Source: an uncultured Eubacteriales bacterium (GTDB taxonomy: Bacteria; Bacillota; Clostridia; Oscillospirales; Acutalibacteraceae). Taken from it: DNA of 53,529 nt. A program made the position numbers and the translations under genes. Positions 36,678 through 53,273 of the stretch are shown one piece after another. Every line of letters begins with the position of its first letter. Position 1 is the stretch's first letter. Below the pieces are notes generated by a model. The model was not told where the DNA came from. It saw only the letters and a list, made by a program, of their open reading frames with translations, and did no database searches. Location: the NCBI GenBank assembly GCA_900317025.1, contig ONFG01000006.1:1-53529 (forward strand), written 5' to 3'.

Positions 36678-36827
36678 TTAAGCAAAGGGATCAGGGTGTG
36701 TATCTACGACCTTGTCCCCGATCGGGTCCTCGGGATCATTCACCATACCGTTCGTTGAATCGGTAATGATATTGGTTAGAACAAGCTCTACGATATCAAT
36801 TTGAGGTGTTTCATATAGTATTTTCAT
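36678..36827 (-). CDS. Small protein of an unrecognised family (49 residues), copy 1
   Basis: ATG at 36825-36827, with GAGAGG about 9 bases upstream, opens a frame of 49 codons ended by TAA. It begins MKILYETPQIDIVELVL, continues with NIITDSTNG and ends in an acidic, proline-rich tail (DPEDPIGD, then HPDPFA). It has no signal peptide, no membrane segment and no cysteine. The protein at 53109-53273 is clearly related: both have Y.TP, IV.L.L and IITDST in the same order. Both precede a secreted-protein gene; here the gap is 49 nt and one promoter appears to serve both genes. Function unknown. It could be a regulatory leader, a chaperone or a precursor peptide; the sequence does not decide. Confidence 0.75.
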   Translation of the reverse strand: MKILYETPQIDIVELVLTNIITDSTNGMVNDPEDPIGDKVVDTHPDPFA

Positions 36828-36915
36828 CGTTAAATGCCTCTCTTTCCTTAACAATCACTTTTTTTCAGTATCATACGTATAAAAAGCAAGACTAAAAAAT
36901 GATTTATTTGGTGAT

Positions 36916-36944
36916 ATTTTATCATGATTTGAGCAAAAAGTAAA
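36916..36944 (-). promoter_or_regulatory. Promoter of the small gene and starch-binding protein
   Basis: Minus-strand TTTACT (36939-36944), 17 bp, TAAAAT (36916-36921) with a TGA extension. The leader is about 80 nt. Confidence 0.75.
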
Positions 36945-37102
36945 TAGAGAAATTGTAAAAAACAGTTTTAGAATTCTACCAGATACTATTTTCTATAATG
37001 TATAAACGGTATTTCAGTTTGTTTGACACACAATAAAATCGAGATGTGTAAGCATAATCCATTTACCGTCATAAGTGTAAAATATCAGCAGGCAGAAAAG
37101 TA

Positions 37103-37210
37103 AGGCGTATTGGATACGCCGATCCGCGCGGAAAACAGGTAAAAAATATGACAGACTAATACTAATTTCAAATTAAATGCTTCAATTTGAAATTCGCGTG
37201 CTGCGCACGC
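37103..37210. repeat. Cluster of three perfect hairpins
   Basis: GGCGTAT-tgg-ATACGCC lies near 37103-37120, AATTTCAAATT pairs with AATTTGAAATT (37164-37174 with 37184-37194), and GCGTGC-tgc-GCACGC (37196-37210) follows one base later. None has a long T-run in either direction. It may be a mobile palindromic repeat or the fold of a small RNA. Confidence 0.5.
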
Positions 37211-37224
37211 TTGGGCGCCTGGGG

Positions 37225-37253
37225 TGTACAAATCAAAAAAGAAGTGATATAAT
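37225..37253 (+). promoter_or_regulatory. Promoter of the sortase pair
   Basis: TGTACA (37225-37230), 17 bp, TATAAT (37248-37253) with TGA just before it (extended -10). Confidence 0.7.
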
Positions 37254-37325
37254 TAAAGGAGCATAAGAATTTGAGAATAACAAAGAAGAATAACCGGAAA
37301 GGAATAGAAAAGGAACTGAAACGAG

Positions 37326-38315
37326 ATGAAACGAAAGATAATTGGAATCACAATCATTGTGATCGGCTGCTGCTTTGTGCTGTACCCTATCGTCGGCAAC
37401 ATTATAAATGTGATACGGCAGAACTCCGTACAGGCGGAGTACAATACGATGGTGCAGCAGCTTAACGACGAGACGAAGGAAACGTTGAAATCAGGCGCGG
37501 ACGATTACAACAAAAGACTTGCCTTGGGAGAGATCGCCGCTGTCTCGACAGACGAAGACAGCCTTGAAGAGAATTACGACGACGGCACAGGCTACAGCAA
37601 AGCACTCGACATAGGTACCGGCGAGATCGCGTTCATAAGTATTCCGAAGATCGACATAAGACTGCCGATCTACAGAGGTACGAATCCCGAAACTCTAGAA
37701 CGAGGGATCGGGCATCTGAGGAACACCTCGCTGCCCGTCGGCGGCGAAAGCACCCACTGTGTCCTGACAGGTCATACAGGGCTGCCGTCTTCTGCGCTTT
37801 TTACCGATATCTCGAAGCTTGAAAAAGGTGATATCTTCTATATCCAGTATCTCGACGAGATACACGCATACAGCGTAGACCAGGTAAAGGTCGTCGATCC
37901 GACAGACAGCTCCGATCTGAAGATCGTTCCGGGAAAGGACTACGTGACGCTGCTGACGTGCTACCCATACGGCGTGAATTCACACAGGCTGCTCGTGCGC
38001 GGCGAGCGTACACCCTATAACGGCATGATAAGCTACGACGAAAAAGGCAAGATCAGCTCCATCACAGGGAAACCGTCGGCTTCAGCTCTTGAAAGCGTAG
38101 ATACGCCCCTTACCGACAGCGACAACGGTTCGAGTATTTTTGACGACTTCAAAAACAACACGGCGAAGGTGTCGGTCTACGGCTTCAATGTATCGCTCGT
38201 TCCGATAATACTGATCGTTCTGGCGGTGCTTGCGGCAGTCGCGGCAGCGGTTGCGTTTACTGTCGTCGGTATAGTTAAAAGCAAAAAGAAAACGAACGAT
38301 ACGGAAGAGGGCTAA
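37326..38315 (+). CDS. Class C-type sortase 1
   Basis: A 329-residue transpeptidase. It has an N-terminal membrane helix (5-27), a linker, the sortase barrel (about 95-240) and a C-terminal membrane helix (about 290-318) ending in basic residues. Catalytic residues are His in VLTGHTGLP, Cys in LLTCYPYGVNSHR and Arg in LLVRGERTP. The LPVGGESTH motif and the two-helix layout place it in class C, the pilus-assembling sortases. The Asp-Pro-aromatic lid expected before the barrel is not obvious. The second sortase gene starts 5 nt downstream. No pilin or LPXTG protein is encoded nearby. Confidence 0.92.
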   Translation: MKRKIIGITIIVIGCCFVLYPIVGNIINVIRQNSVQAEYNTMVQQLNDETKETLKSGADDYNKRLALGEIAAVSTDEDSLEENYDDGTGYSKALDIGTGEIAFISIPKIDIRLPIYRGTNPETLERGIGHLRNTSLPVGGESTHCVLTGHTGLPSSALFTDISKLEKGDIFYIQYLDEIHAYSVDQVKVVDPTDSSDLKIVPGKDYVTLLTCYPYGVNSHRLLVRGERTPYNGMISYDEKGKISSITGKPSASALESVDTPLTDSDNGSSIFDDFKNNTAKVSVYGFNVSLVPIILIVLAVLAAVAAAVAFTVVGIVKSKKKTNDTEEG

Positions 38316-38320
38316 AAGCA

Positions 38321-39169
38321 ATGAAAAAATACAGGATCCTGCTTACGGCAGGGATAAGCTTAGTAGTGATCGGCGTGGGAATCATTATTTTCCCGCACAT
38401 TCTGAATTATATGAACGAAAGCCGCATGAAGGCAGCCGTTGAAAGCTTTGACGAGCGGATCGATCAGATGTACGGCGACACCGACACGGGCGACATCGAC
38501 CGCGAGATCGCCGCTATAAACGCTTCTGCCGATACCGACTACACAATTGAGGACTACGTTAAGGATAAAAACATAAAGGCTGACGAAAACAGCCAAAAGT
38601 ACGATTGGGCGCTGATCTCGCTTCTGAGAGATCAGATGGAGCGCTACAACAAAGAGCTGCTAGAGCAAGGGCAGTATGAGCTAAACGACCCCTTCTCGGT
38701 TGAGCAGCCGTCGTTCCTGCTGAGCACATACAGCATTTCGGACAATGTTTTCGGGCATATAAGCGCGCCCGCGATAAACATGGATCTGCCGATCTATCTG
38801 GGAGCGAATCAGTATAACATGAACTTTGGTGCGGTACATCTCTCCTACTCGTCTATGCCGATCGGCGGCGAAAGCACGAATTCCGTTTTCGCGGCGCACA
38901 GAGGCTATATTGGCAAGATATTCTTTGATAATATCGTATTTCTAAATGAAGGCGACGATGTTTACGTCACAAACCCGTGGGAAACTCTCCACTACAGGGT
39001 GATCGAAACAGAGGTAATATCGCCCTACGATATACAGCGCTGCTACATTCGCGAAGGGCAAAGCCTCATCACACTGTTGACGTGTCACCCATACGGCTCG
39101 AATGAATACCGCTACATGGTAGTGTGCGAGCAGGTGAAGGACCAAAACGAAAGCGATAACGACACATAA
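38321..39169 (+). CDS. Class C-type sortase 2
   Basis: A 282-residue sortase with one N-terminal membrane helix (5-27) and a longer helical region before the barrel. Residues NDPF near 125 look like the lid motif of class C enzymes. The catalytic residues are His in FAAHRGY, Cys in LLTCHPYGSNEYR and the Arg of that same stretch. Unlike its upstream neighbour it lacks a C-terminal membrane helix and ends in a short acidic tail. The pair may divide polymerisation and anchoring of one substrate, but that substrate is not in the window. Confidence 0.9.
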   Translation: MKKYRILLTAGISLVVIGVGIIIFPHILNYMNESRMKAAVESFDERIDQMYGDTDTGDIDREIAAINASADTDYTIEDYVKDKNIKADENSQKYDWALISLLRDQMERYNKELLEQGQYELNDPFSVEQPSFLLSTYSISDNVFGHISAPAINMDLPIYLGANQYNMNFGAVHLSYSSMPIGGESTNSVFAAHRGYIGKIFFDNIVFLNEGDDVYVTNPWETLHYRVIETEVISPYDIQRCYIREGQSLITLLTCHPYGSNEYRYMVVCEQVKDQNESDNDT

Positions 39170-39175
39170 AAAAAG

Positions 39176-39199
39176 GACCTGCGGCAAAAACCGCAGGTC
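39176..39199. terminator. Bidirectional terminator between the sortases and prfC
   Basis: A 9-bp stem (39176-39184 with 39191-39199, arms GACCTGCGG and CCGCAGGTC). The minus strand has a seven-T tail; the plus strand is T-rich after it. Confidence 0.85.
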
Positions 39200-39216
39200 T
39201 GATTCTTTTGAAGATG

Positions 39217-40806
39217 TTATTTAGAGCCAAACTCCTCGAGCATAAGACCTTTGTTGTGTTCGAGAGCCCAGTTGATGCTCCACTGGCTCGTGAAGAGCAG
39301 AAGATAATTGCCCTTCAAGTCCTGTATACGCTTCGTGTCGGAAGCAAGGTCGAGCGTTTTGGGGTCGATGACCGCGTTCGTGATCCAGCGGATAAACTGG
39401 TACGGAAGCGTTTCCATTACAATCTCGACGTTGTACTCGTTGTTAAGTCGGTATTTGAGGACGTCGAACTGGAGCGTTCCGACAACACCGACGATCACCT
39501 CTTCCATACCGCCGCCAAGCTCCTGGAACATCTGTATAGCGCCCTCCTGGGCGATCTGGGTCGTCCCCTTGACGAACTGCTTGCGCTTCATCGTGTCCTT
39601 CTGGCGAATGCGGGCGAAGTGCTCGGGGGCAAACGTCGGGATCCCCTTGAACTGGATATTCATACCGGGCGCGCACACCGTATCTCCGATGGAGAATATA
39701 CCGGGATCGAAAACACCGATGATATCGCCGGCATAAGCCTCCTCAACGACCTCTCTGTCCTGAGCCATTATCTGCTGAGGCTGCGAGAGGCGAAGCTTCT
39801 TGTTGCTCTGAACGTGGAAGACCTCCATGCTCTTGTCGAATTTGCCGGAGCAGATCCTCATGAAGGCTACTCTGTCGCGGTGAGCCTTGTTCATGTTCGC
39901 CTGTATCTTGAAAACAAAGGCGGAGAATTTGTCGTTTACAGGGTCGACGGTCGAGACATTTGTCTCCCTCGGGAGAGGCGGCGTCGTGATCGAAAGAAAC
40001 TCTTCCAAAAACGGCTCCACGCCGAAGTTTGTAAGCGCCGAACCGAAGAACACGGGAGTCAGTCTGCCGGCTCTTACCTCATCGAGGTCAAAGTTATCGC
40101 CCGCACCGTCGAGAAGCTCGATCTCGTCGAGAAGATCCTGTTTGCGGTAGGATCCAACAAGCTCGTCAAACTCAGGCGAATCTAGGGCGATCTCAGTTTT
40201 CTCGACCTCCTTCTGACCGTTCATAGCGGCAGTGAAGGCGAGCACCTTTTCGCTCTTTCTGTCGTAAACGCCCTTGAACTCCTTGCCGCTGCCGATAGGC
40301 CAGTTCATCGGGCAGGTGTTGATGCCGAGAACGGTCTCGATATCTTCGAGCAGGTCAAAGGGGCTTTGAGCGTCTCTGTCCATTTTATTAATAAACGTGA
40401 TGATCGGGATATGGCGCATAACGCAGACCTTGAAAAGCTTCTTCGTCTGGTTCTCAACGCCCTTGGAGCCGTCGATCACCATGACAGCCGAATCGGCTGC
40501 CATGAGCGTGCGGTAAGTGTCCTCCGAGAAGTCCTGGTGACCCGGGGTGTCGAGGATATTGATGCAGTAACCGTTGTAACGGAACTGGAGAACGGACGAG
40601 GTAACGGAAATACCGCGCTGCTTCTCGATCTCCATCCAGTCGGAAACGGCGTGCTTCGAGGAATGCTTTCCCTTTACCGCACCTGCGGAGTTGATAGCTC
40701 CGCCATAAAGAAGAAGCTTCTCGGTGAGCGTTGTTTTGCCTGCGTCCGGGTGCGATATGATCGCAAAGGTGCGCCTTTTATTGATCTCGTTTTTTAAATC
40801 TGCCAA
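39217..40806 (-). CDS. prfC: Peptide chain release factor 3
   Basis: A 529-residue translational GTPase that recycles release factors 1 and 2. It has the G1 motif SHPDAGKTTLTEKLL, DTPGHQDFSEDTYR (G3), NKMDRD (G4), and the C-terminal RF3 domain with FVKGTTQIAQEGAIQMF and GVVGTLQFDVLKYRL. Its length equals that of the Escherichia coli protein. It is monocistronic or the last gene after the CmpB-family gene upstream. Confidence 0.97.
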   Translation of the reverse strand: MADLKNEINKRRTFAIISHPDAGKTTLTEKLLLYGGAINSAGAVKGKHSSKHAVSDWMEIEKQRGISVTSSVLQFRYNGYCINILDTPGHQDFSEDTYRTLMAADSAVMVIDGSKGVENQTKKLFKVCVMRHIPIITFINKMDRDAQSPFDLLEDIETVLGINTCPMNWPIGSGKEFKGVYDRKSEKVLAFTAAMNGQKEVEKTEIALDSPEFDELVGSYRKQDLLDEIELLDGAGDNFDLDEVRAGRLTPVFFGSALTNFGVEPFLEEFLSITTPPLPRETNVSTVDPVNDKFSAFVFKIQANMNKAHRDRVAFMRICSGKFDKSMEVFHVQSNKKLRLSQPQQIMAQDREVVEEAYAGDIIGVFDPGIFSIGDTVCAPGMNIQFKGIPTFAPEHFARIRQKDTMKRKQFVKGTTQIAQEGAIQMFQELGGGMEEVIVGVVGTLQFDVLKYRLNNEYNVEIVMETLPYQFIRWITNAVIDPKTLDLASDTKRIQDLKGNYLLLFTSQWSINWALEHNKGLMLEEFGSK

Positions 40807-40860
40807 ATAGATTACCTCCGTCCGTTATACGGGATTAATTGATATACTCGTCAGATGACG

Positions 40861-41787
40861 TTATTTACCGGCTTTGCGTTTCGCGTCCTTTGTGAGTGTG
40901 ACCGCGAAAATGTGCTTGTATCTGCCGTTTTTAATGTGCGGGAACGCGCGGCTTATGCGTGCGCTGCGTCTGGCGATGTTATCCTTCGATCTTTGCAGCC
41001 TGTCCATAAGGTCTTCGTACTGTGCACGGCGGCGCTCGTCAATCGCTTTCTTTTTGGTGAGGTGCTTTTCGCGCGCGTCGCCAAGGTCTTCTTCAAACTC
41101 GAGCTGAGCCGCCTCAATTGCCTCTTTGACATTTTCCTGCTTTTCGTCGAGCGTATCCTTGATTTGCTTTGTTTTGCCGACAAGCTCGATCGTTTTGCTG
41201 CTTATGTTCGTACCGATAGAGACAGAGAGCTTTTCAAGTGACGCCTCGATCTCTGCCACAGCGCGCAGGCTGCTTCTGATGTGCATGACATTGACAATCG
41301 TCAGCGTCAGATCCGTGAGGAAAATGCCATACAACACGCCCAACAGGATATAACCGTACTTTTCAGGTATCACGCCGACAAGTCCCACGATCGTGGGGTG
41401 AACGACGTAAACGACGATCACGCAGGCAAAGCCCCACATGAGCGAAAACCTCGGGCAAATGTAGCCCTTTATGTTATAAGGTTCATTCGTATAATCCCAC
41501 CACTTTTCGTGGAAGAAACGCTCAAGCAGAAAGCCTGCCATGAACTCGATGAACGTAGTAAACAGAACAGACGCCAGAAAAAATGCGGCCCAATGCGCTT
41601 TAAGAGGCTCTAAGAAAAGGATCACAGAGAGCGCTCCAAAGCCGTAGATCGGGCAGACGGGACCAATATCGAAGCCGCGGTTGACGAACTCGCCGTGAAC
41701 GATCGCGGCATATGCGACCTCGCAGCACCACCCGAGAAAGGAATAGATAAGGAAAAGACACAATAACTCATATGGTGAATAGTTCAA
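40861..41787 (-). CDS. CmpB-family membrane protein (putative ABC permease), copy 1
   Basis: A 308-residue protein of the pfam06541 (ABC_trans_CmpB) family. Five to six membrane segments fill residues 5-165, with IYSFLGWCCEVAYAA, VNRGFDIGPVCPIYGFGA and ERFFHEKWWDYTNEPYNIKGYICPRFSLMWG as family signatures. A coiled-coil-like cytoplasmic tail of about 130 residues follows. The start is TTG with GGAG nine bases upstream. Transport by this family is unproven. A paralogue lies at 48124. Confidence 0.85.
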   Translation of the reverse strand: MNYSPYELLCLFLIYSFLGWCCEVAYAAIVHGEFVNRGFDIGPVCPIYGFGALSVILFLEPLKAHWAAFFLASVLFTTFIEFMAGFLLERFFHEKWWDYTNEPYNIKGYICPRFSLMWGFACVIVVYVVHPTIVGLVGVIPEKYGYILLGVLYGIFLTDLTLTIVNVMHIRSSLRAVAEIEASLEKLSVSIGTNISSKTIELVGKTKQIKDTLDEKQENVKEAIEAAQLEFEEDLGDAREKHLTKKKAIDERRRAQYEDLMDRLQRSKDNIARRSARISRAFPHIKNGRYKHIFAVTLTKDAKRKAGK

Positions 41788-41813
41788 TAAAGATCACTCC
41801 ATCTGCATTGAAT

Positions 41814-41835
41814 AAGCCCTCGGCTGTGAGGGCTT
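41814..41835 (-). terminator. Hairpin after the DtxR-family gene
   Basis: AAGCCCTC (41814-41821) pairs with GAGGGCTT (41828-41835). The T-run on the minus strand is weak (TTATTC), so termination may be partial. Confidence 0.55.
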
Positions 41836-41839
41836 TCGC

Positions 41840-42217
41840 TTACTTTTCACCTTTTACGCGCTTGACGTGCTTTTTGATAGCAGCAAACGTTTCGGGGCTG
41901 ATTATGTGCTCCATGCGGCAGGCATCTTCGACCGCCGTTTTGGGATCGACGCCAAGCTCGATAAACCACCCTGAAAGGAAGGTGTGGCGCTCGTAGATCC
42001 TTTCGGCGATCTCCTTTCCGGGAGTTTCGAGAGATATGTAGCCCTTCGGGTCAACGCTGATATAGCCGTTTTCTCTGAGGTTTTTCATCGCGATGCTAAC
42101 GCTCGGCTTGGAGTAGCCGAGCTCGGTCGCAATATCGATCGAACGCACCTCTCCGTTTCGGTTTTTGAGAATGAGTATAGTTTCGAGATAATCCTCTGCC
42201 GATTCTCTGATCTTCAT
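41840..42217 (-). CDS. DtxR/MntR-family metal-dependent regulator
   Basis: A 125-residue repressor with an N-terminal winged helix (1-65) and a short dimerisation/metal domain, without the SH3-like domain of full DtxR. The metal residues EDYLE (Asp9, Glu12) match MntR, whereas CRMEH has the Cys-x-x-Glu-His of DtxR. I therefore cannot call Mn or Fe selectivity. It has its own promoter with an inverted repeat downstream. No manganese or iron transporter gene is adjacent. Confidence 0.92.
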   Translation of the reverse strand: MKIRESAEDYLETILILKNRNGEVRSIDIATELGYSKPSVSIAMKNLRENGYISVDPKGYISLETPGKEIAERIYERHTFLSGWFIELGVDPKTAVEDACRMEHIISPETFAAIKKHVKRVKGEK

Positions 42218-42271
42218 TCGGCACCCTCCTTTGGCAATATGGAATTGTTTATCGATTTATCTTGTTAAATA

Positions 42272-42310
42272 CGATCGGAAACGCTTTACGTTTTCGCCAT
42301 TTTCCGATCG
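42272..42310. promoter_or_regulatory. Inverted repeat in the leader of the DtxR-family gene
   Basis: CGATCGGAAA (42272-42281) and TTTCCGATCG (42301-42310) are perfect 10-bp arms, with a nested AAACG/CGTTT pair. It lies between the predicted transcription start and the gene. It may be an operator, an attenuator or the terminator of the upstream lipoprotein gene. Confidence 0.6.
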
Positions 42311-42329
42311 GGTTATATTCAATGATCTA

Positions 42330-42359
42330 ATTATAACACACCGAGGCAATACTTTACAA
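42330..42359 (-). promoter_or_regulatory. Promoter of the DtxR-family gene
   Basis: Minus-strand TTGTAA (42354-42359), 18 bp, TATAAT (42330-42335) with TGT before it (extended -10). Confidence 0.75.
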
Positions 42360-42374
42360 GTGTTTTGACCGCAG

Positions 42375-43433
42375 TTATTTTTCATAAGATGTCGTGACCT
42401 CGGCTGCGGAAGCCTTGTATTCGTCGGGGATCGTCATGTTGAGGTCCTTGAGGCGATCCTTGTTGACGTAAAGCTTACATTCGTTCTCCATGATAACTGG
42501 CGTATCGGCTGCACTCTCACCGTGAAGGATCTCGGCCGCCTGCCGGCCTGCCTTTTCGCCGAGGGCTTCAAAGTCGTAGCAGTAGCCCGCAAGAGCGCCT
42601 TCCTTTACCTGCGTGAGGTTCACGCCGTAAAGCGGCATCTCGCCGGCTATGGTCCGGCTCGTTATGTTCCACGAGTTTTTTGACGTCATATTATCGGGAA
42701 GGATGACAACCGCCTCGACCTTTCCCATAAGCTCCTGCGCCTTTTCAGACATTTCCGCAGGGCTGTCTACAGGCTCGGCAAAGACCGTGATCCCGAGCTT
42801 TTCGGAGGCCTTGCGCAGCCCCTTGAGCTGCACCTGCGCGTTCTGCTCGGACGATGTATAGATAACTCCGAGCCTCGTTATCGAGGGCTGAAAGGTATTT
42901 ATCATGTTAAGCTGCTCGTTGATGTTGAAAGCGGTCGCAACACCGGTGCAGTTTACGCCCGGCTCGGCTGCGCTCTGCACAAGCCCCGCGCCCACCGGGT
43001 CGGTAACGGCGCAGAATACGACCGGAACTCCGGCTGCGGACGAGATTATCGGGAAAACACTCTCAGCGCACGGCGTACCTATCGCGATAACAAGGTCGCA
43101 GGAACCGTTCGTGACGATGTCTCTCGCCTTCTGCCCGCACTCCTCGGCGGCGTCAGGCTCCTGCCCCACCGTTACCTCGTAACCGATGCCGGCTGCGTCG
43201 AGAGCCTTTTTGACGCCCTCGCAGCACTCGTTCAAGGACGAGTAGTCGATATACTGAATAATGGAGACGGTCGTTCCGCTCATAAGACAGCTTTCGTCCG
43301 GCTGAGATACAGCCTCTTCTTCGGCTGTTTCCTCCGGCTCGTCGACAGAAAGCTTCATGCTACACGAGCAAAGCGCGGAAAGCATTACCGCGGCGGCAAG
43401 AAGCACCGCCTTGATGCGCAGTTTCGAGTTCAT
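42375..43433 (-). CDS. ABC transporter substrate-binding lipoprotein (pfam04392)
   Basis: A 352-residue exported protein with a lipobox (LCSC near residue 22) after a signal peptide, so it should be lipid-anchored. The fold is the two-lobed periplasmic-binding type of the ABC_sub_bind family: SIIQYIDYSSLNECCEGVKKAL, LVIAIGTPCAESV, PVVFCAVTDPVGAGLV, RLGVIYTSSEQNA and VVILPDNMT. In some relatives the ligand is an aromatic amino acid or a sugar. The permease and ATPase genes that usually follow are missing here, so the partner must be elsewhere or the protein acts alone. It lies 4 nt after the serine acetyltransferase gene. Confidence 0.88.
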   Translation of the reverse strand: MNSKLRIKAVLLAAAVMLSALCSCSMKLSVDEPEETAEEEAVSQPDESCLMSGTTVSIIQYIDYSSLNECCEGVKKALDAAGIGYEVTVGQEPDAAEECGQKARDIVTNGSCDLVIAIGTPCAESVFPIISSAAGVPVVFCAVTDPVGAGLVQSAAEPGVNCTGVATAFNINEQLNMINTFQPSITRLGVIYTSSEQNAQVQLKGLRKASEKLGITVFAEPVDSPAEMSEKAQELMGKVEAVVILPDNMTSKNSWNITSRTIAGEMPLYGVNLTQVKEGALAGYCYDFEALGEKAGRQAAEILHGESAADTPVIMENECKLYVNKDRLKDLNMTIPDEYKASAAEVTTSYEK

Positions 43434-43437
43434 GAGG

Positions 43438-45651: not shown

Positions 45652-45680
45652 TTGTAAAATTTCGGATTATGTGGTATAGT
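45652..45680 (+). promoter_or_regulatory. Promoter of the phosphohexomutase gene
   Basis: TTGTAA (45652-45657), 17 bp, TATAGT (45675-45680) with a TG-rich extension. Confidence 0.75.
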
Positions 45681-45784
45681 ATAAGTAAGCGGCGTTTGCG
45701 CTTTTTGCGTATTTTGCTGCTAACTACACCCGCACCATCGCTTTTGCGGGCGTTTCTGAATATCAGAACAGGGAGATGTGTTTT

Positions 45785-47518
45785 ATGGAAACCGCAATAA
45801 AGTCACTTTATGAGGAATGGATCGCAAGCGCCGTTGACGACGGCAGCCTTATCGACGAGCTGAAAAGCATCGAGGGCGACGAGGAACAGATCTACGACCG
45901 CTTCTACAGGGCGCTTGAATTCGGCACGGCAGGCCTCAGAGGCGTTTTGGGTGCCGGCACAAACAGGATGAATATATACACGGTAAGAGTTGCTACGCAG
46001 GGTCTTGCCAATTATCTTAAAAATCACTACAGCGAGTCGTCTGTTTCGATCTCTTACGATTCGAGGATCAACTCCACGCTGTTTTCCGAGGAGGCAGCAA
46101 GAGTTCTTGCTGCTAACGGCATCAAAGTCTACCTTTCAAAGGAGCTTCAGCCGACTCCGGTAGTTTCCTACGCGGTAAGATACTTCAAGAGCCAGGCGGG
46201 CATCATGGTAACGGCAAGCCACAACCCCTCGAAGTACAACGGCTACAAGTGCTACGGCTCGGACGGATGTCAAATGACAGACGTTGCCGCAGGCGAGGTA
46301 TACAGCGAGATTCAGAAGCTCGACTGCTTCAAGGACGTAAAGCTCGTCGACTTTAAAGAAGCTCTCGCAAACGGCTCGATCGAATATATCGGAGAGGAGT
46401 TCTACGAGTCTTACCTCGAGAAGGTACAAGAGCAGTCGATCCGCAAGGGCATCTGCGAAGGCTCGGACCTCAAGGTAGTTTATACCCCTCTCAACGGCGC
46501 CGGCAATAAGCTCGTTCGCAAGATCCTCGACAGGACCGGCGTTAAGGATGTACATATCGTTAAGTCGCAGGAACTGCCCGACGGCAACTTCCCGACCTGC
46601 CCCTACCCGAACCCGGAGATCAGAGAGGCTCTCGAAGAGGGCTTGAAGCTTTGCGCAGAGGTAAAGCCCGACCTTCTTCTCGCTACCGACCCCGACAGCG
46701 ACAGAGTCGGCATCGCGGTTCCCGACGGCGACAGCTACCGCCTTATGACGGGAAACGAGACAGGCATCATGCTTACAGATTACATTCTCAAGAGTCGCAT
46801 CGAGCTTGGCACACTGCCGAAGGATCCAGTCATGGTCAAGACGGTCGTTACGAGCGTTCTCGTTGACAGGCTCGCCGCAAAATACGGCGTTGAAGTCAAG
46901 AATGTGCTCACGGGCTTCAAGTACATCGGCGAACAGATCCTCCACCTTGAAGAGAAGAACGAGGAATACCGCTATGTATTCGGCTTTGAAGAGAGCTACG
47001 GCTACCTTGCAGGCTCTTACGTAAGAGACAAGGACGCAGTTGTCGCTTCCATGCTCATCGCGGAAATGACGGCTTACTACAAGAAGCAGGGCAAGTCGCT
47101 CGTAGACGTTATAAACGAGCTTTACGCAGAGTTTGGCTACTACAAGAACGTAACGCTCAGCTTTGAGTTTGACGGCGCTTCCGGTATGGAAACAATGAAG
47201 AACATCATGGACGGTCTGAGGAACTTCAAGGGCGGCGAGATGGCCGGCTACAAGATCACAAGGCACGCAGACTACCTGCTCCAATTCGATAAGGACTTTG
47301 TAACGGGTGAGGAAAAGAAGATCGACCTCCCGAAGTCGAACGTTCTCTCATTCTTCCTTGAAAACGGCAATGCGATCATCGTTCGTCCCTCCGGAACAGA
47401 GCCGAAGATCAAGATCTACTTCACAGGCGTCGGCAAGGACGAGGCAGACGCAGTAAAGACAGCCGAGGGTCTTATCAACTACGTAAAGAATTCCGACGTA
47501 TTCTTCCCGAAGGCATAA
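45785..47518 (+). CDS. pgcA: Phosphoglucomutase/phosphomannomutase
   Basis: A 577-residue alpha-D-phosphohexomutase that interconverts glucose 1- and 6-phosphate, linking glycogen and wall-sugar synthesis to glycolysis. The active serine lies in GIMVTASHNPSKYNGYK, the Mg site in ATDPDSDRVG, the sugar site in GFEESYGYLAG and the phosphate site in RPSGTEPKIKIYF. ATG at 45785 was chosen because GGGAG lies nine bases upstream; an ATG at 45776 abuts that site. A terminator follows. Confidence 0.96.
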   Translation: METAIKSLYEEWIASAVDDGSLIDELKSIEGDEEQIYDRFYRALEFGTAGLRGVLGAGTNRMNIYTVRVATQGLANYLKNHYSESSVSISYDSRINSTLFSEEAARVLAANGIKVYLSKELQPTPVVSYAVRYFKSQAGIMVTASHNPSKYNGYKCYGSDGCQMTDVAAGEVYSEIQKLDCFKDVKLVDFKEALANGSIEYIGEEFYESYLEKVQEQSIRKGICEGSDLKVVYTPLNGAGNKLVRKILDRTGVKDVHIVKSQELPDGNFPTCPYPNPEIREALEEGLKLCAEVKPDLLLATDPDSDRVGIAVPDGDSYRLMTGNETGIMLTDYILKSRIELGTLPKDPVMVKTVVTSVLVDRLAAKYGVEVKNVLTGFKYIGEQILHLEEKNEEYRYVFGFEESYGYLAGSYVRDKDAVVASMLIAEMTAYYKKQGKSLVDVINELYAEFGYYKNVTLSFEFDGASGMETMKNIMDGLRNFKGGEMAGYKITRHADYLLQFDKDFVTGEEKKIDLPKSNVLSFFLENGNAIIVRPSGTEPKIKIYFTGVGKDEADAVKTAEGLINYVKNSDVFFPKA

Positions 47519-47531
47519 ATAAAGCTTCAAC

Positions 47532-47566
47532 GGCACCTGCGGCAGTAAACTGCGGGTGCTGTTTTT
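47532..47566 (+). terminator. Terminator of pgcA
   Basis: GCACC/GGTGC (47533-47537 with 47555-47559) and GCAG/CTGC form an interrupted stem, followed by GTTTTTAT. Confidence 0.8.
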
Positions 47567-47645
47567 ATATGAAGGGATTCATCGTGCGATATTAAACATT
47601 ATAAAGAGACGAATGAATCGACCTGATTCTTTGTAGGTTTTTATA

Positions 47646-47674
47646 TTGACTTTTTCGCAAAAATGTGGTTTAAT
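47646..47674 (+). promoter_or_regulatory. Promoter of the 97-residue protein gene
   Basis: TTGACT (47646-47651), 17 bp, TTTAAT (47669-47674), with TGTGG before the -10 as in the pgcA promoter. Confidence 0.7.
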
Positions 47675-47763
47675 TATACTGATTAAAAGTGTGTTTACCG
47701 CACATACGCTCTTTGCGGAGTGCGGCGACCGGTTTTCCTAAAGTTTGAAAGGAGATATGTAAA

Positions 47764-48057
47764 ATGGATCTTGGTTCACTTGCCCAGATGGGTCAGAGTA
47801 TGTTAAAAAACGGAAGCGGCGCTGCCGCTTCAAACGATAAGGCTGCTGACGCAGTAACAGCTATGATACCGAAGGAGCTGCTCGACAAGCTCCCCCCCTC
47901 TGTTCGCCCGATGATAACAGCGCAGGCGGTCGAGGCAGCGGCAAAGCAGGCTCCCGAGCTTATCGAGGTTTTGCGCAAGGGCGGCAAGCTCACGGGCGCA
48001 GACGCCGAAAAGCTCAAGTCTATCGTTGCCGGTATCGCACAGAACGCTGGTAAATAA
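47764..48057 (+). CDS. Conserved-looking small protein of unknown function (97 residues)
   Basis: I do not recognise the family. ATG with AAGGAG at optimal spacing. The protein is soluble, rich in Ala, Lys and Gly, and mostly helical (AADAVTAMIPKELLDKLPPSV, then AVEAAAKQAPELIEVLRKGGK, then DAEKLKSIVAGIA). It has no cysteine, no signal peptide and no membrane segment. It is followed 66 nt later by a CmpB-family membrane gene in the same direction, with no terminator between, so the two are probably co-transcribed. Confidence 0.75.
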   Translation: MDLGSLAQMGQSMLKNGSGAAASNDKAADAVTAMIPKELLDKLPPSVRPMITAQAVEAAAKQAPELIEVLRKGGKLTGADAEKLKSIVAGIAQNAGK

Positions 48058-48123
48058 GCCTTTGCCCCTCTCCGCGCGAAACGCTTTCACGAAGCGGCGG
48101 ATAATAAAAGATCGTGGTGATTT

Positions 48124-48942
48124 ATGAGCATTTCACAGATAATTGTGTTTTTCATGGTTTACAGCTTTATCGGCTGGGTTTGGGAAATGATCTACATACC
48201 GTTTGAGGACAAGTGCTTTCAGAACAGAGGCTTTCTGTTCGGGCCTATCTGCCCTATCTACGGCTTCTGCATCATGTTCCTCTACTTCCTAATGCATCAT
48301 GTTCAGTTCTTTGTAAGCGAAAGCATGACGATGCCTAAGCTGTTTTTCGTGTGTATGGTTGGCAGCGCGATAGTCGAGTTCACCACCTCGTGGGGGCTTG
48401 AACGCCTTTTCCACGCCAGATGGTGGGATTACAGCAAGTTCCCGCTCAATATCAACGGAAGAATATGCTTGCCCGCAAGCGTATTCTTCGGGCTGGCAGG
48501 CGTAACACTCGTACGCTTCGTCTTCCCCACTATGGACATCGTAGCGGACGTCGTCCCCGAGGCAGCCTTTGAGACGGCGGCGATAATCCTCGCCTTTATC
48601 TTCGGTGCGGACTACGCCCTCACAAACGCAAGCCTTACGTCTCTGCTTGAGAAGATCGAGAACGCCAACAAAGAGTTCATCGAAAAAGGCGAGTCGGTAT
48701 ATCAGGTGATAGCATCGACCCCGGAGCAGCTCAAAAAACGTCTCGTCGATTACGAGTCGGAAACGAGAGAGCGCGCCCGCAGCATTGCTGAAAGCCTGAG
48801 CGGACCGCAGAAGTATCTCGTCAGCAGGATAACAAGATTCAGCAGCGGCTTCGGCTTCGCCGAAGAAGAGCGTGAAAAGCCGAATATGGGAAACCGCATC
48901 AAGGAATACCTTGTCAATCTCAGAAACAATACAAAAAGATAA
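48124..48942 (+). CDS. CmpB-family membrane protein (putative ABC permease), copy 2
   Basis: A 272-residue paralogue of the protein at 40861. It shares YSFIGWVWEMIYIPFEDK, QNRGFLFGPICPIYGFCIM, ERLFHARWWDYSKFPLNINGR and the coiled-coil-like cytoplasmic tail. About six membrane segments fill residues 5-165. Transport has not been shown for the family. It is downstream of the 97-residue protein gene and ends at a shared terminator. Confidence 0.85.
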   Translation: MSISQIIVFFMVYSFIGWVWEMIYIPFEDKCFQNRGFLFGPICPIYGFCIMFLYFLMHHVQFFVSESMTMPKLFFVCMVGSAIVEFTTSWGLERLFHARWWDYSKFPLNINGRICLPASVFFGLAGVTLVRFVFPTMDIVADVVPEAAFETAAIILAFIFGADYALTNASLTSLLEKIENANKEFIEKGESVYQVIASTPEQLKKRLVDYESETRERARSIAESLSGPQKYLVSRITRFSSGFGFAEEEREKPNMGNRIKEYLVNLRNNTKR

Positions 48943-48947
48943 AAAGC

Positions 48948-48975
48948 AAGATCCCCGGTAATGACCGGGGATCTT
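48948..48975. terminator. Bidirectional terminator
   Basis: An 11-bp perfect stem (48948-48958 with 48965-48975, arms AAGATCCCCGG and CCGGGGATCTT) with T-runs in both directions. Confidence 0.92.
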
Positions 48976-48980
48976 CGTTT

Positions 48981-49916
48981 TTATTCATCGTCCTGAAGCA
49001 TTTTTTCGACCTCGGAGCGCTTTATCATGCGTCCATTGTAGAAAATATATTCGTCCTTGCTGTCGTGTGCGAGGCGGTCGATGTCCTGCGCCTCTTCCCT
49101 TTCAAGCATCGGCTGCTCGGGCTTGGGCGCTTCGTCTTCGTCGTCTTTTACGGCTCTACGCGATTCATCAAGAATACCGATCATATCGTCATAGACGTAA
49201 AACGTGATGATGTACTGCACCGTTGACGGAATAAGAAAAAGCTGCAGTACTCCGAGTATAACGAGCACCGTTATCGGCTCGTTTACGATGTACGCAACAG
49301 TGAATATGACGGCTGCGAGTATCGCAAGCGCCACCGTTGCGAGAATGTTGTTTTTCAGCTCGCCGAAGGAGAAAAGCGCGCAGTTGCGGTAAGTATCCTT
49401 TAGCGAGATGTCCATGGTGACGGTCATCACGTTCATATAATACGACGCAAAAAGGACGAACAGCGCGATCAGTCCCGTTATAACGAGGGGCACCCAGAAA
49501 ATGCCGTTAGTCTTCGTGCCGTTGTAGTACAGTGATATCGAAAGAAAGCTGACAGCGAAGACGGCGTAGAACATCACGCCGTGAATTGTAAAGCGAAGCG
49601 CGTTCTCTTTAATCCCCTTCTTGAATGCCGTAAACGCGGAAAACTCTTTGCCGCTGCATATATAACGGCAGATAAGCGCAACACCCGACATACCGACATT
49701 CAGCACTATAAGCCCCACGGCCGCCGCAGGAATGTTGAGCGCGCCAAAAAGCTTGTAAACAAGCGCCGCAATCCCTGCCGCCGCAAGGTTAAACGGCAGC
49801 AGGAAAAGATTTGCCAAAATCAAGTATTTGAATTTGGAGAAATAAAGCTCAAAAAAACGCTGCGAACGCATCGGCTTATCCGATACGGCTTCGGGATCTA
49901 TTCTATATTCCGCCAC
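48981..49916 (-). CDS. Multi-pass membrane protein, DUF624/YesL-like, with a cytoplasmic tail
   Basis: A 311-residue protein with about six hydrophobic segments between residues 28 and 240, in an order resembling DUF624 (YesL), where RFFELYFSKFKYLILANLF at the start is the best match. A charged C-terminal tail of about 70 residues (DDEDEAPKPEQPM, then EYIFYNGRMIKRSEVEKML) is predicted to be cytosolic. No enzyme motif is seen. It lies 19 nt downstream of the SpoIIM-like gene. The family call is tentative. Confidence 0.7.
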   Translation of the reverse strand: MAEYRIDPEAVSDKPMRSQRFFELYFSKFKYLILANLFLLPFNLAAAGIAALVYKLFGALNIPAAAVGLIVLNVGMSGVALICRYICSGKEFSAFTAFKKGIKENALRFTIHGVMFYAVFAVSFLSISLYYNGTKTNGIFWVPLVITGLIALFVLFASYYMNVMTVTMDISLKDTYRNCALFSFGELKNNILATVALAILAAVIFTVAYIVNEPITVLVILGVLQLFLIPSTVQYIITFYVYDDMIGILDESRRAVKDDEDEAPKPEQPMLEREEAQDIDRLAHDSKDEYIFYNGRMIKRSEVEKMLQDDE

Positions 49917-49935
49917 ATAATACCCCCGTTCAAAA

Positions 49936-50604
49936 TCAGAATGAAAATGCGAAAAGTCTGCCTATCAAAAAATACAGCAGCGTATCGGTAAGCGACGAAA
50001 AAACGACGATCATTATCGAATACGCGCCGTTGATAAGCAGCTCACGAAAGCGCTCCCTAAGCGGCAAGCCCGCTGCACGCCCCAAGACAGCCAGCAGCAT
50101 GGACGCCGAGCAGCCAAGGCAGTACTGCGAGATGTACACCAGCGCGAGCGACGACAAAAAAGCCCCCGCCAGCACGACCGATATAAAGTACGCAAGCCCC
50201 GAAAAACCGTAAGCCCCGCACAGCACGCCTGAAAACAAGCCGAACTCAAAGCCGCGGAAAAACATGAGCGCCGGTATCGCCGGAAGCCCCGCCGGGGTCA
50301 GCGCAAGAAAACACAGCGCCGCCGCGAACACGAACGTCACCGAAAACGAATCCGCAAAGACCATGACGGGCGTTTTGTCGCCCGAAGACGGCAGCGTTAT
50401 GAGAAACTTGTCCACACCGGTCAATTGTGCAGCGCCCGAGGACGAACGAACGGCGCCGCAGACAAACCCCGAAAGCAGCACGGCAACAAGAAACAGCATG
50501 ATACCGTACTGCCGCACAAAGCACACAAGGCGCTCCGCTGCGGGGCGTTTTTCATGTTCGAGAGCAGAGTTTGTCTGAGGGAGCGCTATAACTATACTTT
50601 TCAT
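49936..50604 (-). CDS. SpoIIM-like membrane protein
   Basis: About 222 residues, five or so membrane segments. ALMFFRGFEFGLFSGVLCG followed by LAYFISVVLAGAFLSSLALVYIS resembles the core of stage II sporulation protein M (DUF95). In Bacillus, SpoIIM works with SpoIID and SpoIIP in engulfment, but neither is here. ATG at 50604 has GAGAGG ten bases upstream; a TTG seven codons earlier is less likely. It may be a relative with a different job. Confidence 0.65.
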   Translation of the reverse strand: MKSIVIALPQTNSALEHEKRPAAERLVCFVRQYGIMLFLVAVLLSGFVCGAVRSSSGAAQLTGVDKFLITLPSSGDKTPVMVFADSFSVTFVFAAALCFLALTPAGLPAIPALMFFRGFEFGLFSGVLCGAYGFSGLAYFISVVLAGAFLSSLALVYISQYCLGCSASMLLAVLGRAAGLPLRERFRELLINGAYSIMIVVFSSLTDTLLYFLIGRLFAFSF

Positions 50605-50678
50605 CGGCGATGATCCTCTCTTCAATGATTCTACTCAAAGAATATGAAGAGCGGCGCGCCGATATTACCTGTGAAATG

Positions 50679-51488
50679 TTATTTTGAAAGCTCGTCGGCT
50701 CTCTTTGTGCAGGCGTCCATCGCCTCGATCACGGAATTGTAAAAATCCTTCTCGTCGAGCTTTTCAAGCGCTTTAAGCGTAGTGCCGCCCGGAGAGGACA
50801 CTTTTTTGATAAGCGTTTCGGGGGTGTCTCCCGACTTTTCGAGCATCTCTGCGCTGCCCCTGAGCGTTGCGCATACTAGCTTCATAGCCGCCGCCTCGTC
50901 GATCCCCTCTTTAACGGCATAGTCGACCATCGCTTTAGCAAACAGATAAACGTAAGCGGGGCTGCTGCCGTTGACCGCGATGACACTGTTCATCTTTGAT
51001 TCGTCGAGGATAGCTACCTCGCCGCCGTTTGCAAACATATCGTATACGCAGGCAAAATCATCGTCGGAGATATTCCTGCGGCTGATAGCCGTCGCACCGC
51101 AGCCGAGAAGCAGCGGAGTGTTCGGCATAACGCGCACCATTGGGCATTCAATGCCGACCGTCTTTGCTATGTAATCGGTGGAGATGCCAGCCGCGATCGT
51201 TACGATGACCTTCGTCTGCGTAACGGCAGGCTTAATGCTTTCGAGCACCTCTGCATAATTCTGAGGCTTTACCGCAAGCACCGTGATATCGGAGGTTTCT
51301 ACTACAGCTTTAGCATCTGCTGCCTTTTTGACGCCCTTTTCCTTAACCATTGCCTCGAGCTTATCCGCCATAACGTCGAAGACAGTTATGTGCTCACCGT
51401 CGGCAGAGCCGCTGCGGAGAAGTCCTCCGATGATCGCCGTAGCCATATTGCCGGCGCCTATAAAACCAATCTTTTTCAATTTAATCAC
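50679..51488 (-). CDS. proC: Pyrroline-5-carboxylate reductase
   Basis: A 269-residue NADPH-dependent enzyme, last step of proline synthesis. It begins KKIGFIGAGNMATAIIGGLL and contains VRVMPNTPLLLGCGA, AVNGSSPAYVYLFAKAM, and the C-terminal signature of the family with SPGGTTLKALEKLDEKDF. The start is GTG at 51488 with AAAGGG upstream; it overlaps the preceding gene by 4 nt. Confidence 0.96.
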   Translation of the reverse strand: MIKLKKIGFIGAGNMATAIIGGLLRSGSADGEHITVFDVMADKLEAMVKEKGVKKAADAKAVVETSDITVLAVKPQNYAEVLESIKPAVTQTKVIVTIAAGISTDYIAKTVGIECPMVRVMPNTPLLLGCGATAISRRNISDDDFACVYDMFANGGEVAILDESKMNSVIAVNGSSPAYVYLFAKAMVDYAVKEGIDEAAAMKLVCATLRGSAEMLEKSGDTPETLIKKVSSPGGTTLKALEKLDEKDFYNSVIEAMDACTKRADELSK

Positions 51489-52027
51489 CGTTTCCCTTTC
51501 AAAATGTGACCTCTGAATTTTATTTTATAAACGGCAGTCATGCCGTTTATAGCCTTATCATATGCAAGCATTATTATATTGCCGAGGATCAGAAACACGC
51601 AAAGCAACAGCGAGCTGCCGAAGCTCTCCCTCGGTACTCCGAGAAGCAGCACAGCCGAGAAGAAATAAGCGGCACATGCTGCATTGATATAGATCAATTT
51701 AACGGTTAATTTCACGGCAGATTTACCGATAATTCGCTTTTTCGCATGATCAAGGGCGTATTTCAGCACCGGATAAGCTCCGGCAAGCAGTACAAATACG
51801 CTTACAGCCTCTTTATCGGCAACAAGCAGGATCGAGAGTATCGACGACGCCAGATAGACACCAAAGGCGCATCTCCCGCCAAATTCCTCTGCCGCGATCG
51901 CAACACAGATCCCCGAGAGTATCGGGCTGCAGTAAAGCATTACCGGTATCACCGGAACGAGAAGCATAAACACTGTAGCGAGCGCCGTAAGTATACCGCA
52001 GAACGCGGCTCTGACGCTTGATCTCAT
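51485..52027 (-). CDS. Small multi-pass membrane protein of unknown function
   Basis: About 180 residues, with five or six hydrophobic segments and short loops, recalling the S-components of ECF vitamin transporters, though no named family is clear to me. ATG at 52027 has GAGG eight bases upstream. It overlaps proC by 4 nt and follows the J-domain-like gene by 5 nt, so the three form one operon. Confidence 0.7.
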   Translation of the reverse strand: MRSSVRAAFCGILTALATVFMLLVPVIPVMLYCSPILSGICVAIAAEEFGGRCAFGVYLASSILSILLVADKEAVSVFVLLAGAYPVLKYALDHAKKRIIGKSAVKLTVKLIYINAACAAYFFSAVLLLGVPRESFGSSLLLCVFLILGNIIMLAYDKAINGMTAVYKIKFRGHILKGKR

Positions 52028-52032
52028 CTCGG

Positions 52033-52533
52033 TCACCTCAATCCGGATATCAGATTTCTGATCGCCTTGAACAGCCCCGGGCTGTTATTATCCCGTGATG
52101 CGCGCCCGATTCTGTCGTACAGCTCGTTGAATTCGGAGCTGAGATCATCCTTTTCAAGCGCTCTCTTGATGTAGACGAGCGCCTCGCTCAAAAGCCCGCG
52201 CTTGAAGAGCACGAGTGCCTTCAGGTAATTCCACTCGCCGCCTCGTGCCAAGCTTCTCACACTATCGAGTATCTCTTCGGCGTCGCTCAGACGGCAGCTC
52301 GTTATAAGCCGCCTGACATCCGCAAACTCGGAGACTGTCGCTTTCGGCTCGGGCGCGCCCGTTTTCCTTTGGCGGATCAGCTCATCATAGGCGGCGTCGA
52401 TCGCCTTCATCTTTTCAAGCGACGCGCTGTCGGAGGCGGAGTAGTATTTTGCAGCCAGCTTTTTATATGCGGCTCTCAGCTGGGCCTCGTCTGCTGACGG
52501 CGCTACGCCGAGAATATCATAAGAAGTATTCAT
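52033..52533 (-). CDS. J-domain-like protein lacking the HPD motif
   Basis: A 166-residue protein. Residues 3-60 have the helices of a DnaJ J-domain (SYDILGVAPSADEAQLRAAYKKLAAKYY, then MKAIDAAYDELIRQ), but the HPD tripeptide that stimulates DnaK is replaced by YSAS. The C-terminal half (70-150) has two TPR-like helical pairs, ending GLRX. Either it binds DnaK differently or it is a non-chaperone scaffold. The gene is the first of an operon with a membrane protein and proC. Confidence 0.8.
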   Translation of the reverse strand: MNTSYDILGVAPSADEAQLRAAYKKLAAKYYSASDSASLEKMKAIDAAYDELIRQRKTGAPEPKATVSEFADVRRLITSCRLSDAEEILDSVRSLARGGEWNYLKALVLFKRGLLSEALVYIKRALEKDDLSSEFNELYDRIGRASRDNNSPGLFKAIRNLISGLR

Positions 52534-52798
52534 TATGCTTGCCTCAATGTCTGTTTTTGCAGTTTGTATTCATACCGATCCACAATCAGATAAAAAGCTT
52601 TAAAAGCATCTGACCGGAAGCAGTATTGTACCTTCTCATTCGTTATTTTACTACATAAAACGGCAATTATAATTAACTATATGTAAATTTTCCTCGAAAT
52701 CTCGGTCTTATAACTCCAATACGTCAATTTGACAGTCTTTTCATATGTATTGTAGAAAAAATTCACGTATTAGCGTCCCTACAATTTTGCAATTTTTA

Positions 52799-52827
52799 TT
52801 TACAATTTAACATATGTATGGTAAAAT
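52799..52827 (+). promoter_or_regulatory. Promoter of the second small-gene operon
   Basis: TTTACA (52799-52804), 17 bp, TAAAAT (52822-52827). The same hexamers, bar one base, drive the related small gene at 36827. Confidence 0.78.
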
Positions 52828-52852
52828 ATTATCAGGTGTAATTCCACAAATT

Positions 52853-52957
52853 TTACATCGTGCAGCAGTGATTTTTAGCCCCGTCATGGTCTCGTTGTCC
52901 AGTAACGGGCTTCGGGGTCATGCGGCACAAGATCATGGGCCTTGTGCCCTGGGCAGG
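52853..52957 (+). promoter_or_regulatory. Structured 5' leader of unknown class
   Basis: The leader has a perfect 8-bp stem, GGCACAAG with CTTGTGCC (about 52924-52948), just before a possible ribosome binding site, AGGTGG. Upstream, CCCCG can pair either with CGGGG or, shifted, CCCGT with ACGGG, so two folds exclude each other. Three short repeats of TCATG occur in it. I could not match it to a riboswitch class. Confidence 0.45.
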
Positions 52958-52962
52958 TGGTG

Positions 52963-53094
52963 ATGCATTATATGGCGTTAGTAAAGGCTGCGTATGATCC
53001 GGCGGACTTTTACATAAGAGGTCCCGACAACACACCGCAGAGAAAACGCAGGCAATTCCAAAAATGCGGCGACGCGCTGCAAAAGAATTTTTAG
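52963..53094 (+). CDS. Possible small protein (43 residues)
   Basis: ATG at 52963 (AGG five bases upstream) opens a frame of 43 codons, with a second in-frame ATG at 52972. The product reads MHYMALVKAAYDPADFYI, then a basic stretch (QRKRRQFQKCG) and ends QKNF. Codon choice is like the nearby genes. I do not recognise it. Its stop lies 14 nt before the next small gene, so the two would be co-transcribed. It could be a leader peptide. Confidence 0.4.
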   Translation: MHYMALVKAAYDPADFYIRGPDNTPQRKRRQFQKCGDALQKNF

Positions 53095-53108
53095 AAGAGG
53101 AGATTGCG

Positions 53109-53273
53109 ATGAAGGAATACTTAACTCCCGAGATGAAGATCGTGAAGCTGGAGCTTTCGGATATTATTACCGACAGCACGTATAAAGGCGAAACCAATGT
53201 TCCGGATACGGTCAACAGCGGTTCAGACCTGTTCTGGAATCCCGGCCAAGGCGGCGGATCCGGTAACCTTTAA
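53109..53273 (+). CDS. Small protein of an unrecognised family (54 residues), copy 2
   Basis: ATG at 53109 with GAGGAG seven bases upstream; an earlier ATG at 53064 has no ribosome binding site. The protein begins MKEYLTPEMKIVKLELSD, continues IITDSTYKG and ends in a Gly/Ser/Asn-rich tail (NPGQGGGSGNL). The first 25 residues align with the 49-residue protein at 36678-36827. It has no signal peptide or cysteine. The next gene, 142 nt downstream, encodes a protein with a signal peptide. Function unknown. Confidence 0.78.
   Translation: MKEYLTPEMKIVKLELSDIITDSTYKGETNVPDTVNSGSDLFWNPGQGGGSGNL

Follow-up and report, generated by a model that had tools for sequence, protein, structure and literature searches.

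Small proteins with a YxxP head in Clostridia, probable precursors of a pathway related to that of the linear polyphosphorylated peptides and encoded beside giant proteins

A [Y/W]-x-x-P motif has been described as the means by which the leaders of lasso peptides, of linear polyphosphorylated peptides (LPPs) and of pyrroloquinoline quinone (PQQ) meet PqqD-like proteins, the recognition elements (RREs) for ribosomally synthesized and post-translationally modified peptides (RiPPs) (PMC13381572). The LPPs were described in May 2026 from the lpp cluster of Paenibacillus alginolyticus; their precursors have the motif YxxPxVLxHQxIxFETxxS, and the peptidase LppS cuts after a Thr, with a Phe at position -3 (PMC13381572). 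Here we report on two small genes in contig ONFG01000006.1 of an uncultured Eubacteriales bacterium of the Acutalibacteraceae (assembly GCA_900317025.1), the whole analysed stretch of which, 53,529 nucleotides, is called the window below. On the basis of sequence comparison we consider it probable that the two encoded proteins serve as precursor peptides in a RiPP pathway of LPP-like kind, the enzymes of which would be encoded elsewhere in the genome. An earlier note on the same DNA, made from the letters alone, knew of no described function for these proteins; that statement has been overtaken by the LPP paper, in which the pathway is described and the biological role of its products is stated as unknown (PMC13381572).

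Measured against the main text of that paper, the likeness extends over several components. Here, too, small precursors combine a conserved YxxP head with a variable tail; a discrete RRE protein with an Asn and Asp pair is found, above the PF05402 cut-off in the source genome; an archaeal-type signal peptidase with Ser, His and Asp is likewise present in that genome; and other genomes have an HprK-like kinase, accompanied in part of the loci by a PF14907-type transferase and an MsbA-like exporter. There are also differences. The head found here ends in D-I-[IV]-T-x-S, whereas the LPP motif ends in F-E-T-x-x-S, and the organisms are Clostridia (e.g. Ruminococcus), whereas the paper deals mainly with Bacilli (PMC13381572). 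The precursors are several per genome and dispersed, and the majority are encoded next to giant proteins, which are mostly secreted. The RRE and peptidase genes of the home genus are accompanied by genes for a sortase and an amylase as well as for an LCP and a dockerin protein; where a kinase was found and its surroundings were read, it is mostly located elsewhere. A word search of the main text returned none of the words Clostridia, Ruminococc-, Lachnospir- and orphan, and literature searches found no description of a Clostridial, giant-protein-linked form.

Lasso peptides of the paeninodin and actinobacterial types share with the present system a [Y/W]xxP-type leader and a PqqD-like RRE, and paeninodin-type clusters also have a kinase and a nucleotidyltransferase (PMC13381572); the peptidase that adjoins the RRE here is, however, of the signal peptidase type. 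With the PQQ system (PqqA with PqqD) the likeness lies in the RRE, which is of the PqqD family (PF05402), and the difference in the PQQ enzymes, which were not noticed in the loci read, although no search was aimed at them.

The two small genes and their family

The gene of peptide 1 (49 aa, MKILYETPQIDIVELVLTNIITDSTNGMVNDPEDPIGDKVVDTHPDPFA) lies at 36678-36827 on the minus strand and that of peptide 2 (54 aa, MKEYLTPEMKIVKLELSDIITDSTYKGETNVPDTVNSGSDLFWNPGQGGGSGNL) at 53109-53273 on the plus strand, both as read from the translated open reading frames (ORFs). The earlier note had reported the two as related genes with good ribosome-binding sites, and a purine-rich site indeed precedes each of them. 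In peptide 1, residues 1-24 (MKILYETPQIDIVELVLTNIITDS, 36756..36827, minus strand) form the conserved head, followed by a variable tail of 25 aa without Cys (36681..36755) and a stop codon at 36678-36680; in peptide 2 the head comprises residues 1-23 (MKEYLTPEMKIVKLELSDIITDS, 53109..53177, plus strand), and the tail, again without Cys, comprises 31 aa (53178..53270) before a stop codon at 53271-53273. The relation was examined with a hidden Markov model of 25 heads, all of them from other genomes and with both window copies excluded, which was run against all stop-to-stop frames of 20 aa or more in the window, 1493 in number. The frame of peptide 2 scored 43.1 bits (E 1.8e-12) and that of peptide 1 31.6 bits (E 7.1e-9), and there was no third match up to an E value of 10. 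The best match in 20 shuffled copies of the frame set reached 10.4 bits. A chance likeness of the two frames is thus excluded, since a profile built without them matches both at scores well above those of the shuffles.

Codon-level conservation in relatives, a point that the earlier note had raised, is found as well: the proportion of nonsynonymous differences (pN) was below that of synonymous differences (pS) in all 12 chosen pairs, for heads and tails alike, a pattern as expected of translated proteins under selection at the protein level. Scans of both peptides against Pfam and NCBIfam gave nothing meaningful, a search of the genome contigs with peptide 1 as sole query gave no relative, and an Rfam scan of the window returned nothing above the gathering scores.

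For the wider search the profile was extended to 27 head rows, the two window copies included, and applied to 22 genomes of the genus. It found 62 places in 15 of these genomes, with 1-15 per genome (E up to 0.5); the 7 weakest (E > 0.005) were dropped, and the remaining 55 copies (E < 0.001) constitute the set analysed below. The profile search of genome and relatives, with a record of neighbouring genes, that the earlier note had proposed thus did reveal further homologues. Its expectation of more copies in the genome is amply borne out in the relatives and modestly in the source genome, which carries three. The third, weaker copy (G000:C27:24776-24856) is followed by a 90-residue tail and then by a gene of 113 aa (LFNEKYGIAHVSYNSGRV...; L097 4777-5501), for which an NCBIfam scan gave no match. 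A similar pair is kept in three relatives (L135, L145 and L168), and an anti-sigma-like gene lies upstream of the pair in the source genome, L135 and L168.

The consensus of the head reads M-K-K-x-Y-x-x-P-E-x-E-I-x-x-L-x-x-x-D-I-[IV]-T-x-S. The Pro of YxxP is kept in 37 of the 53 genus copies with a placeable Tyr, and both window copies have it. The motif-terminal Ser is present in 54 of the 55 copies, a count to be read with the fact that the search pattern itself required it, and the remaining copy is cut at a contig end; two residues before it stands a Thr in 32 copies and a Val in 16. The 54 tails have a median length of 25 residues (range 10-116) and a net negative charge, lack Cys and are rich in D, G, P, E, S, T and N, and their first residue has no consistent identity. 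These features suggest that the heads are probably leaders bound by an RRE through the YxxP motif, that the tails are probably the corresponding cores and that T-x-S probably marks the cleavage region. For the motif-terminal Ser itself a role in cleavage, as the last residue ahead of the cut, is mildly favoured over one as phosphate acceptor, because it is retained also in copies from genomes without a detected kinase. The longest tail, of 116 residues, belongs to a peptide (L171, G009:C77) in which it consists of repeated GGIWDDDSGTAPDTPHS-like units.

Recognition protein, signal peptidase and further enzymes

The RRE gene of the source genome (L080:8750-9022 on contig G000:C17, minus strand) matches PF05402 with 46.6 bits against a cut-off of 23.4 (4e-12; match at G000:C17:82758-82931). 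It overlaps the start of a gene for a SipW-like (archaeal-type) signal peptidase of 157 residues (L080:8284-8757), which reached TIGR02228 at 8e-5, under the cut-off, and had no match in a Pfam scan. Further genes of the same-strand run to which the two belong encode a sortase, an amylase with CBM26 and dockerin, an LCP protein and a dockerin protein.

The presence/absence distribution of these genes follows that of the peptide family. Within the genus, PF05402 is above its cut-off in 14 of the 22 genomes, and all 14 have the peptide family, against one of the eight genomes without such an RRE (Fisher p 4.7e-5). In the order (317 genomes), 65 of 71 family-positive genomes have an RRE above the cut-off, versus 95 of 246 family-negative ones (p 1.5e-16), and the peptidase profile matches in 64/71 versus 37/246 (p 2.4e-32). 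Genome-level p values of this kind are inflated by shared ancestry; a safer count, collapsed to genera with labels that were assigned by hand from the search listings, gave the RRE in 45 of 45 family-positive versus 54 of 109 family-negative genera.

Residue-level comparison points in the same direction. LppB has been reported to grip the leader with N33, at the kink made by the proline, and with D70, at the Tyr; the exchange N33A nearly abolishes leader binding and D70A lowers it (PMC13381572). When the RREs are aligned, weakly (E 0.18), with the PDB chain 9x8z of LppB, an Asn and an Asp of that chain, 37 residues apart, fall on an invariant Asn and Asp of the RREs, which are present in 48/48 sequences of one alignment (A6) and 14/14 of another (A5); from the spacing of 37 residues we infer that the LppB residues concerned are N33 and D70. 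LppS, in turn, requires S29, H68 and D93 (PMC13381572), and a triad of S27, H66 and D92 occurs in 11 of 11 aligned peptidases (A4), with spacings of 39 and 26 as compared to 39 and 25 in LppS. Searched against PDB, the 48-row RRE profile had as top matches the lasso RREs TfuB1 (6jx3_B, 6e-5) and TbiB1 (7e-5), and the sole match of the peptide profile was the leader bound to TfuB1 (6jx3_A), at an E value of 0.89 that is not significant alone. Sequence searches of PDB with the source-genome RRE as sole query and with the signal peptidase profile gave no match.

In other genera the components can be found side by side. Twelve loci were chosen because peptide and RRE matches were neighbours there, and were searched with home-made profiles: the peptidase and an HprK-like kinase match in all twelve, a PF14907-type transferase in six and an ABC exporter also in six, although the exporter match in L181 may be an unrelated importer. 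The gene order in L179 is giant protein, peptide, kinase, RRE, peptidase, ABC exporter and PF14907 transferase, where Pfam supports the exporter and the transferase and the kinase is 39% identical over 153 residues to that of L092. In five of the twelve an ORF of at least 1000 aa ends 13-33 nt before the peptide, and some of the others are cut by contig ends. The L180 cluster in addition holds a radical SAM gene (6187-7542, PF04055 3e-15), and a radical-SAM-like gene, recognized by its motif by eye, lies downstream of the peptide in L143; a further modification is possible at such loci.

When named genomes were scanned with the peptidase profile, at least 563 of 597 candidate stretches were confirmed, and 80 loci were kept among the matches listed. 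Among these 80 the RRE was seen in 65, the kinase in 59, the exporter in 49 and the transferase in 37, and the columns of the triad hold Ser in 80/80, His in 80/80 and Asp in 77/80. Ruminococcus flavefaciens YRD2003 and YL228 have matches to peptide, kinase, RRE, peptidase, exporter and transferase in one run.

Within the home genus, a two-sequence profile of the HprK-like kinase matched in 9 of the 22 genomes, viz. 9 of the 15 family-positive versus none of the seven family-negative ones (p 0.017), and the PF14907 transferase was found in 10 of the 22. Eight kinase regions of the genus were read, several of them cut by contig ends; seven had no RRE or peptidase match nearby and one had a peptidase.

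Giant neighbours of the peptide genes

The gene behind peptide 1 (31502..36643, minus strand) is a frame of 1713 aa, or 1708 aa from the likelier start, with a CBM26 module and a signal peptide according to a crude hydrophobicity window, which was used throughout in place of SignalP. It follows on the same strand at a distance of 34 or 49 nt, according to which start is taken. Peptide 2 is followed after 142 nt, again on the same strand, by the start of a gene with a signal peptide (MKKKFKRFGKSSISLLLSLLMIVSC..., 53416..53529, plus strand) that ends with the contig after 38 codons. The observation of the earlier note that a gene for a signal-peptide protein directly follows each small gene is thus correct for the window, with the second partner cut by the contig end. 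Its generalization, a family encoded upstream of secreted-protein genes, holds for the window, but in the genus it covers the 13 of 55 copies that lie no more than 150 nt ahead of a large secreted gene (one such partner being cut by a contig end) and fails for the 32 of 55 that start at most 70 nt after the end of an ORF of 250 aa or more in the same direction. The remaining 10 neither precede nor follow a large partner gene. Tandem sortase genes (PF04203) at 37326-38315 and 38321-39169, both on the plus strand, diverge from peptide 1 and its giant partner.

By the wide criterion 45 of the 55 peptides are paired with a large partner. When the criterion of the control genes is applied, the numbers are 33 of 55 peptides versus 5 of 129 control genes (p 1e-16), the controls being a limited sample of these genomes drawn from the window and the twelve RRE loci. 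Of the 32 upstream partners, 23 are whole (356-2616 aa) and nine are truncated at a contig end or at the limit of the fetched sequence; of the whole ones 17, including an LCP protein in L091, are positive in the signal test and six are negative. A C-terminal domain of about 130 aa (SLLYLSKTTLRHYYKI...YSPLDYIY...ALYYYAKAA) was seen by eye in 23 of 31 aligned upstream giants, for instance in L195, L142, L143, L204 and L206. A Pfam scan of six upstream giants left this domain unnamed and found InlB-type repeats in three of them. Several giants that lie behind a peptide, the CBM26 protein of the window among them, share a different C-terminal end by eye (NKNRxQF...SDNY type). One contig (G003:C24, with L157, L151 and L161) carries five peptides, two of them nearly identical, together with several giants, and looks like a recent duplication of the peptide-giant unit.

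In the named loci only 12 of 28 peptides lie no more than 70 nt behind an ORF of 400 aa or longer, and Cys occurs in some of the tails there, unlike in the 54 genus tails. As judged from gene order, the coupling of the peptides to giant, mostly secreted proteins is specific. What is new with respect to the described systems is that most of the putative precursors lie away from the enzymes and are paired with giant proteins.

Alternative explanations and possible role

Taken together, the comparisons indicate that the family is real and that its members are probably RiPP precursors of an LPP-related form. In such a system the RRE on contig G000:C17 would bind the head via its Tyr and Pro and would present it to the adjacent peptidase, which would cut in the T-x-S region, after the T or after the S, and free the acidic tail. 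Removal of the leader is most likely RRE-guided and would take place in trans. In genomes that have the kinase, phosphorylation of a Ser is probable.

Several findings weigh against this interpretation. The heads, with YxxPExEIxxLxxxDI[IV]TxS, depart from the published LPP motif, and the Pro is replaced in 16 of the 53 genus copies with a placeable Tyr (by Ala in 8). PqqD domains serve other RiPPs as well. One genome of the genus (G015) carries the peptide without an RRE above the cut-off, and of the 71 family-positive genomes of the order six lack such an RRE and seven the peptidase. An RRE lies within 5 kb of fetched sequence for only 4 of the 55 genus peptides, so that the link between the two in the genus is mainly one of co-occurrence. 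Conversely, the peptide was seen in only 25 of the 80 named peptidase loci (among the matches listed), and in only five of the twelve cluster loci is the peptide immediately preceded by an ORF of 1000 aa or more. In the source genome the RRE and the peptidase score below the cut-offs curated for the specific NCBIfam models, and neither the HprK-like kinase (two-sequence profile; assembly 92% complete) nor PF14907 was found. The exporter was not searched for in that genome, and the full LPP set is therefore not shown there. Since kinase and nucleotidyltransferase went undetected, its product may be cleaved only, or the missing genes may lie in the unassembled part. For the same reason, and because the kinases of the genus mostly lie away from RRE and peptidase, phosphorylation here is unproven.

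The earlier note had left three readings side by side, viz. a precursor peptide, a recognition tag and a leader in control of its partner. Of these, the precursor and the tag are supported, with a head that is probably an RRE-bound leader and a tail that is probably a core. The third would make the frames cis-acting leaders, by attenuation or translational coupling, of the gene that follows, in line with the position of both window copies shortly before a secreted-protein gene and with their good ribosome-binding sites. We regard it as very improbable, because 32 genus copies directly follow a large gene as compared to 13 that precede one and because the RRE and the peptidase, with which the head co-occurs, are encoded elsewhere; moreover, the head is conserved at the amino-acid level. 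The pairing with giants would also suit peptides that remain unprocessed and act whole as small partners of these proteins, as secretion chaperones or assembly tags, with the RRE as a docking protein. Several genomes without detectable kinase and nucleotidyltransferase would fit this, as would the protein-level selection on the tails in the 12 pairs compared. It nevertheless seems unlikely, considering that the heads are common to all copies whereas the tails differ between them, that the co-occurrence with the peptidase is even tighter than that with the RRE, and that some copies adjoin RRE and kinase genes whereas 10 of 55 stand beside no giant.

Two further explanations accept that the peptides are processed and differ in the chemistry. 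The RRE and peptidase could serve a RiPP modification other than phosphorylation, for example by a radical SAM enzyme as encoded in the L180 cluster and, in similar form, behind the L143 copy, and the undetected kinase of the source genome is in line with this. The HprK-like kinase in all twelve selected clusters and in 59 of the 80 named loci, together with its restriction to family-positive genomes in the genus, renders such a system quite improbable. That the peptides are lasso precursors, as the YxxP leader and the PqqD-like RRE common to lasso peptides (PMC13381572) might suggest, is hardly credible: the tails have no consistent first residue, and in none of the 22 genomes of the genus does PF13471, the leader protease B2, exceed its cut-off; two of them have weak matches below it, the source genome has none. 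Membership of the lasso class was rejected on the absence of B2 matches over cut-off; the macrolactam synthetase was not searched for.

Returning to the reading as LPP-related precursors, each peptide is probably co-produced with the giant encoded beside it, and we may therefore speculate that the mature peptide serves that giant or the same surface structure. In its widest form, which we put forward tentatively as a possibility somewhat short of an even chance, this would be a RiPP system of the cell surface, dispersed and one-to-many, in which one RRE and one peptidase process up to about a dozen precursors, the majority of them in tandem with their own giant, mostly secreted protein, and the processed, perhaps phosphorylated tails act as ligands, caps or covalent decorations of the giants. 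If this is true, LPP-type peptides would gain a structural job at the cell surface, not an antibiotic one. A Clostridial LPP-related system that is tied by gene order to giant proteins, one of them with a starch-binding module, provides a testable hypothesis on the role of such peptides. Mining only around enzyme clusters would miss most of the precursors, because so few of the genus copies have an RRE within 5 kb. Related clusters are present in named strains, i.e. in Ruminococcus flavefaciens strains and in Kandleria vitulina DSM 20405, which makes experimental work on the system feasible.

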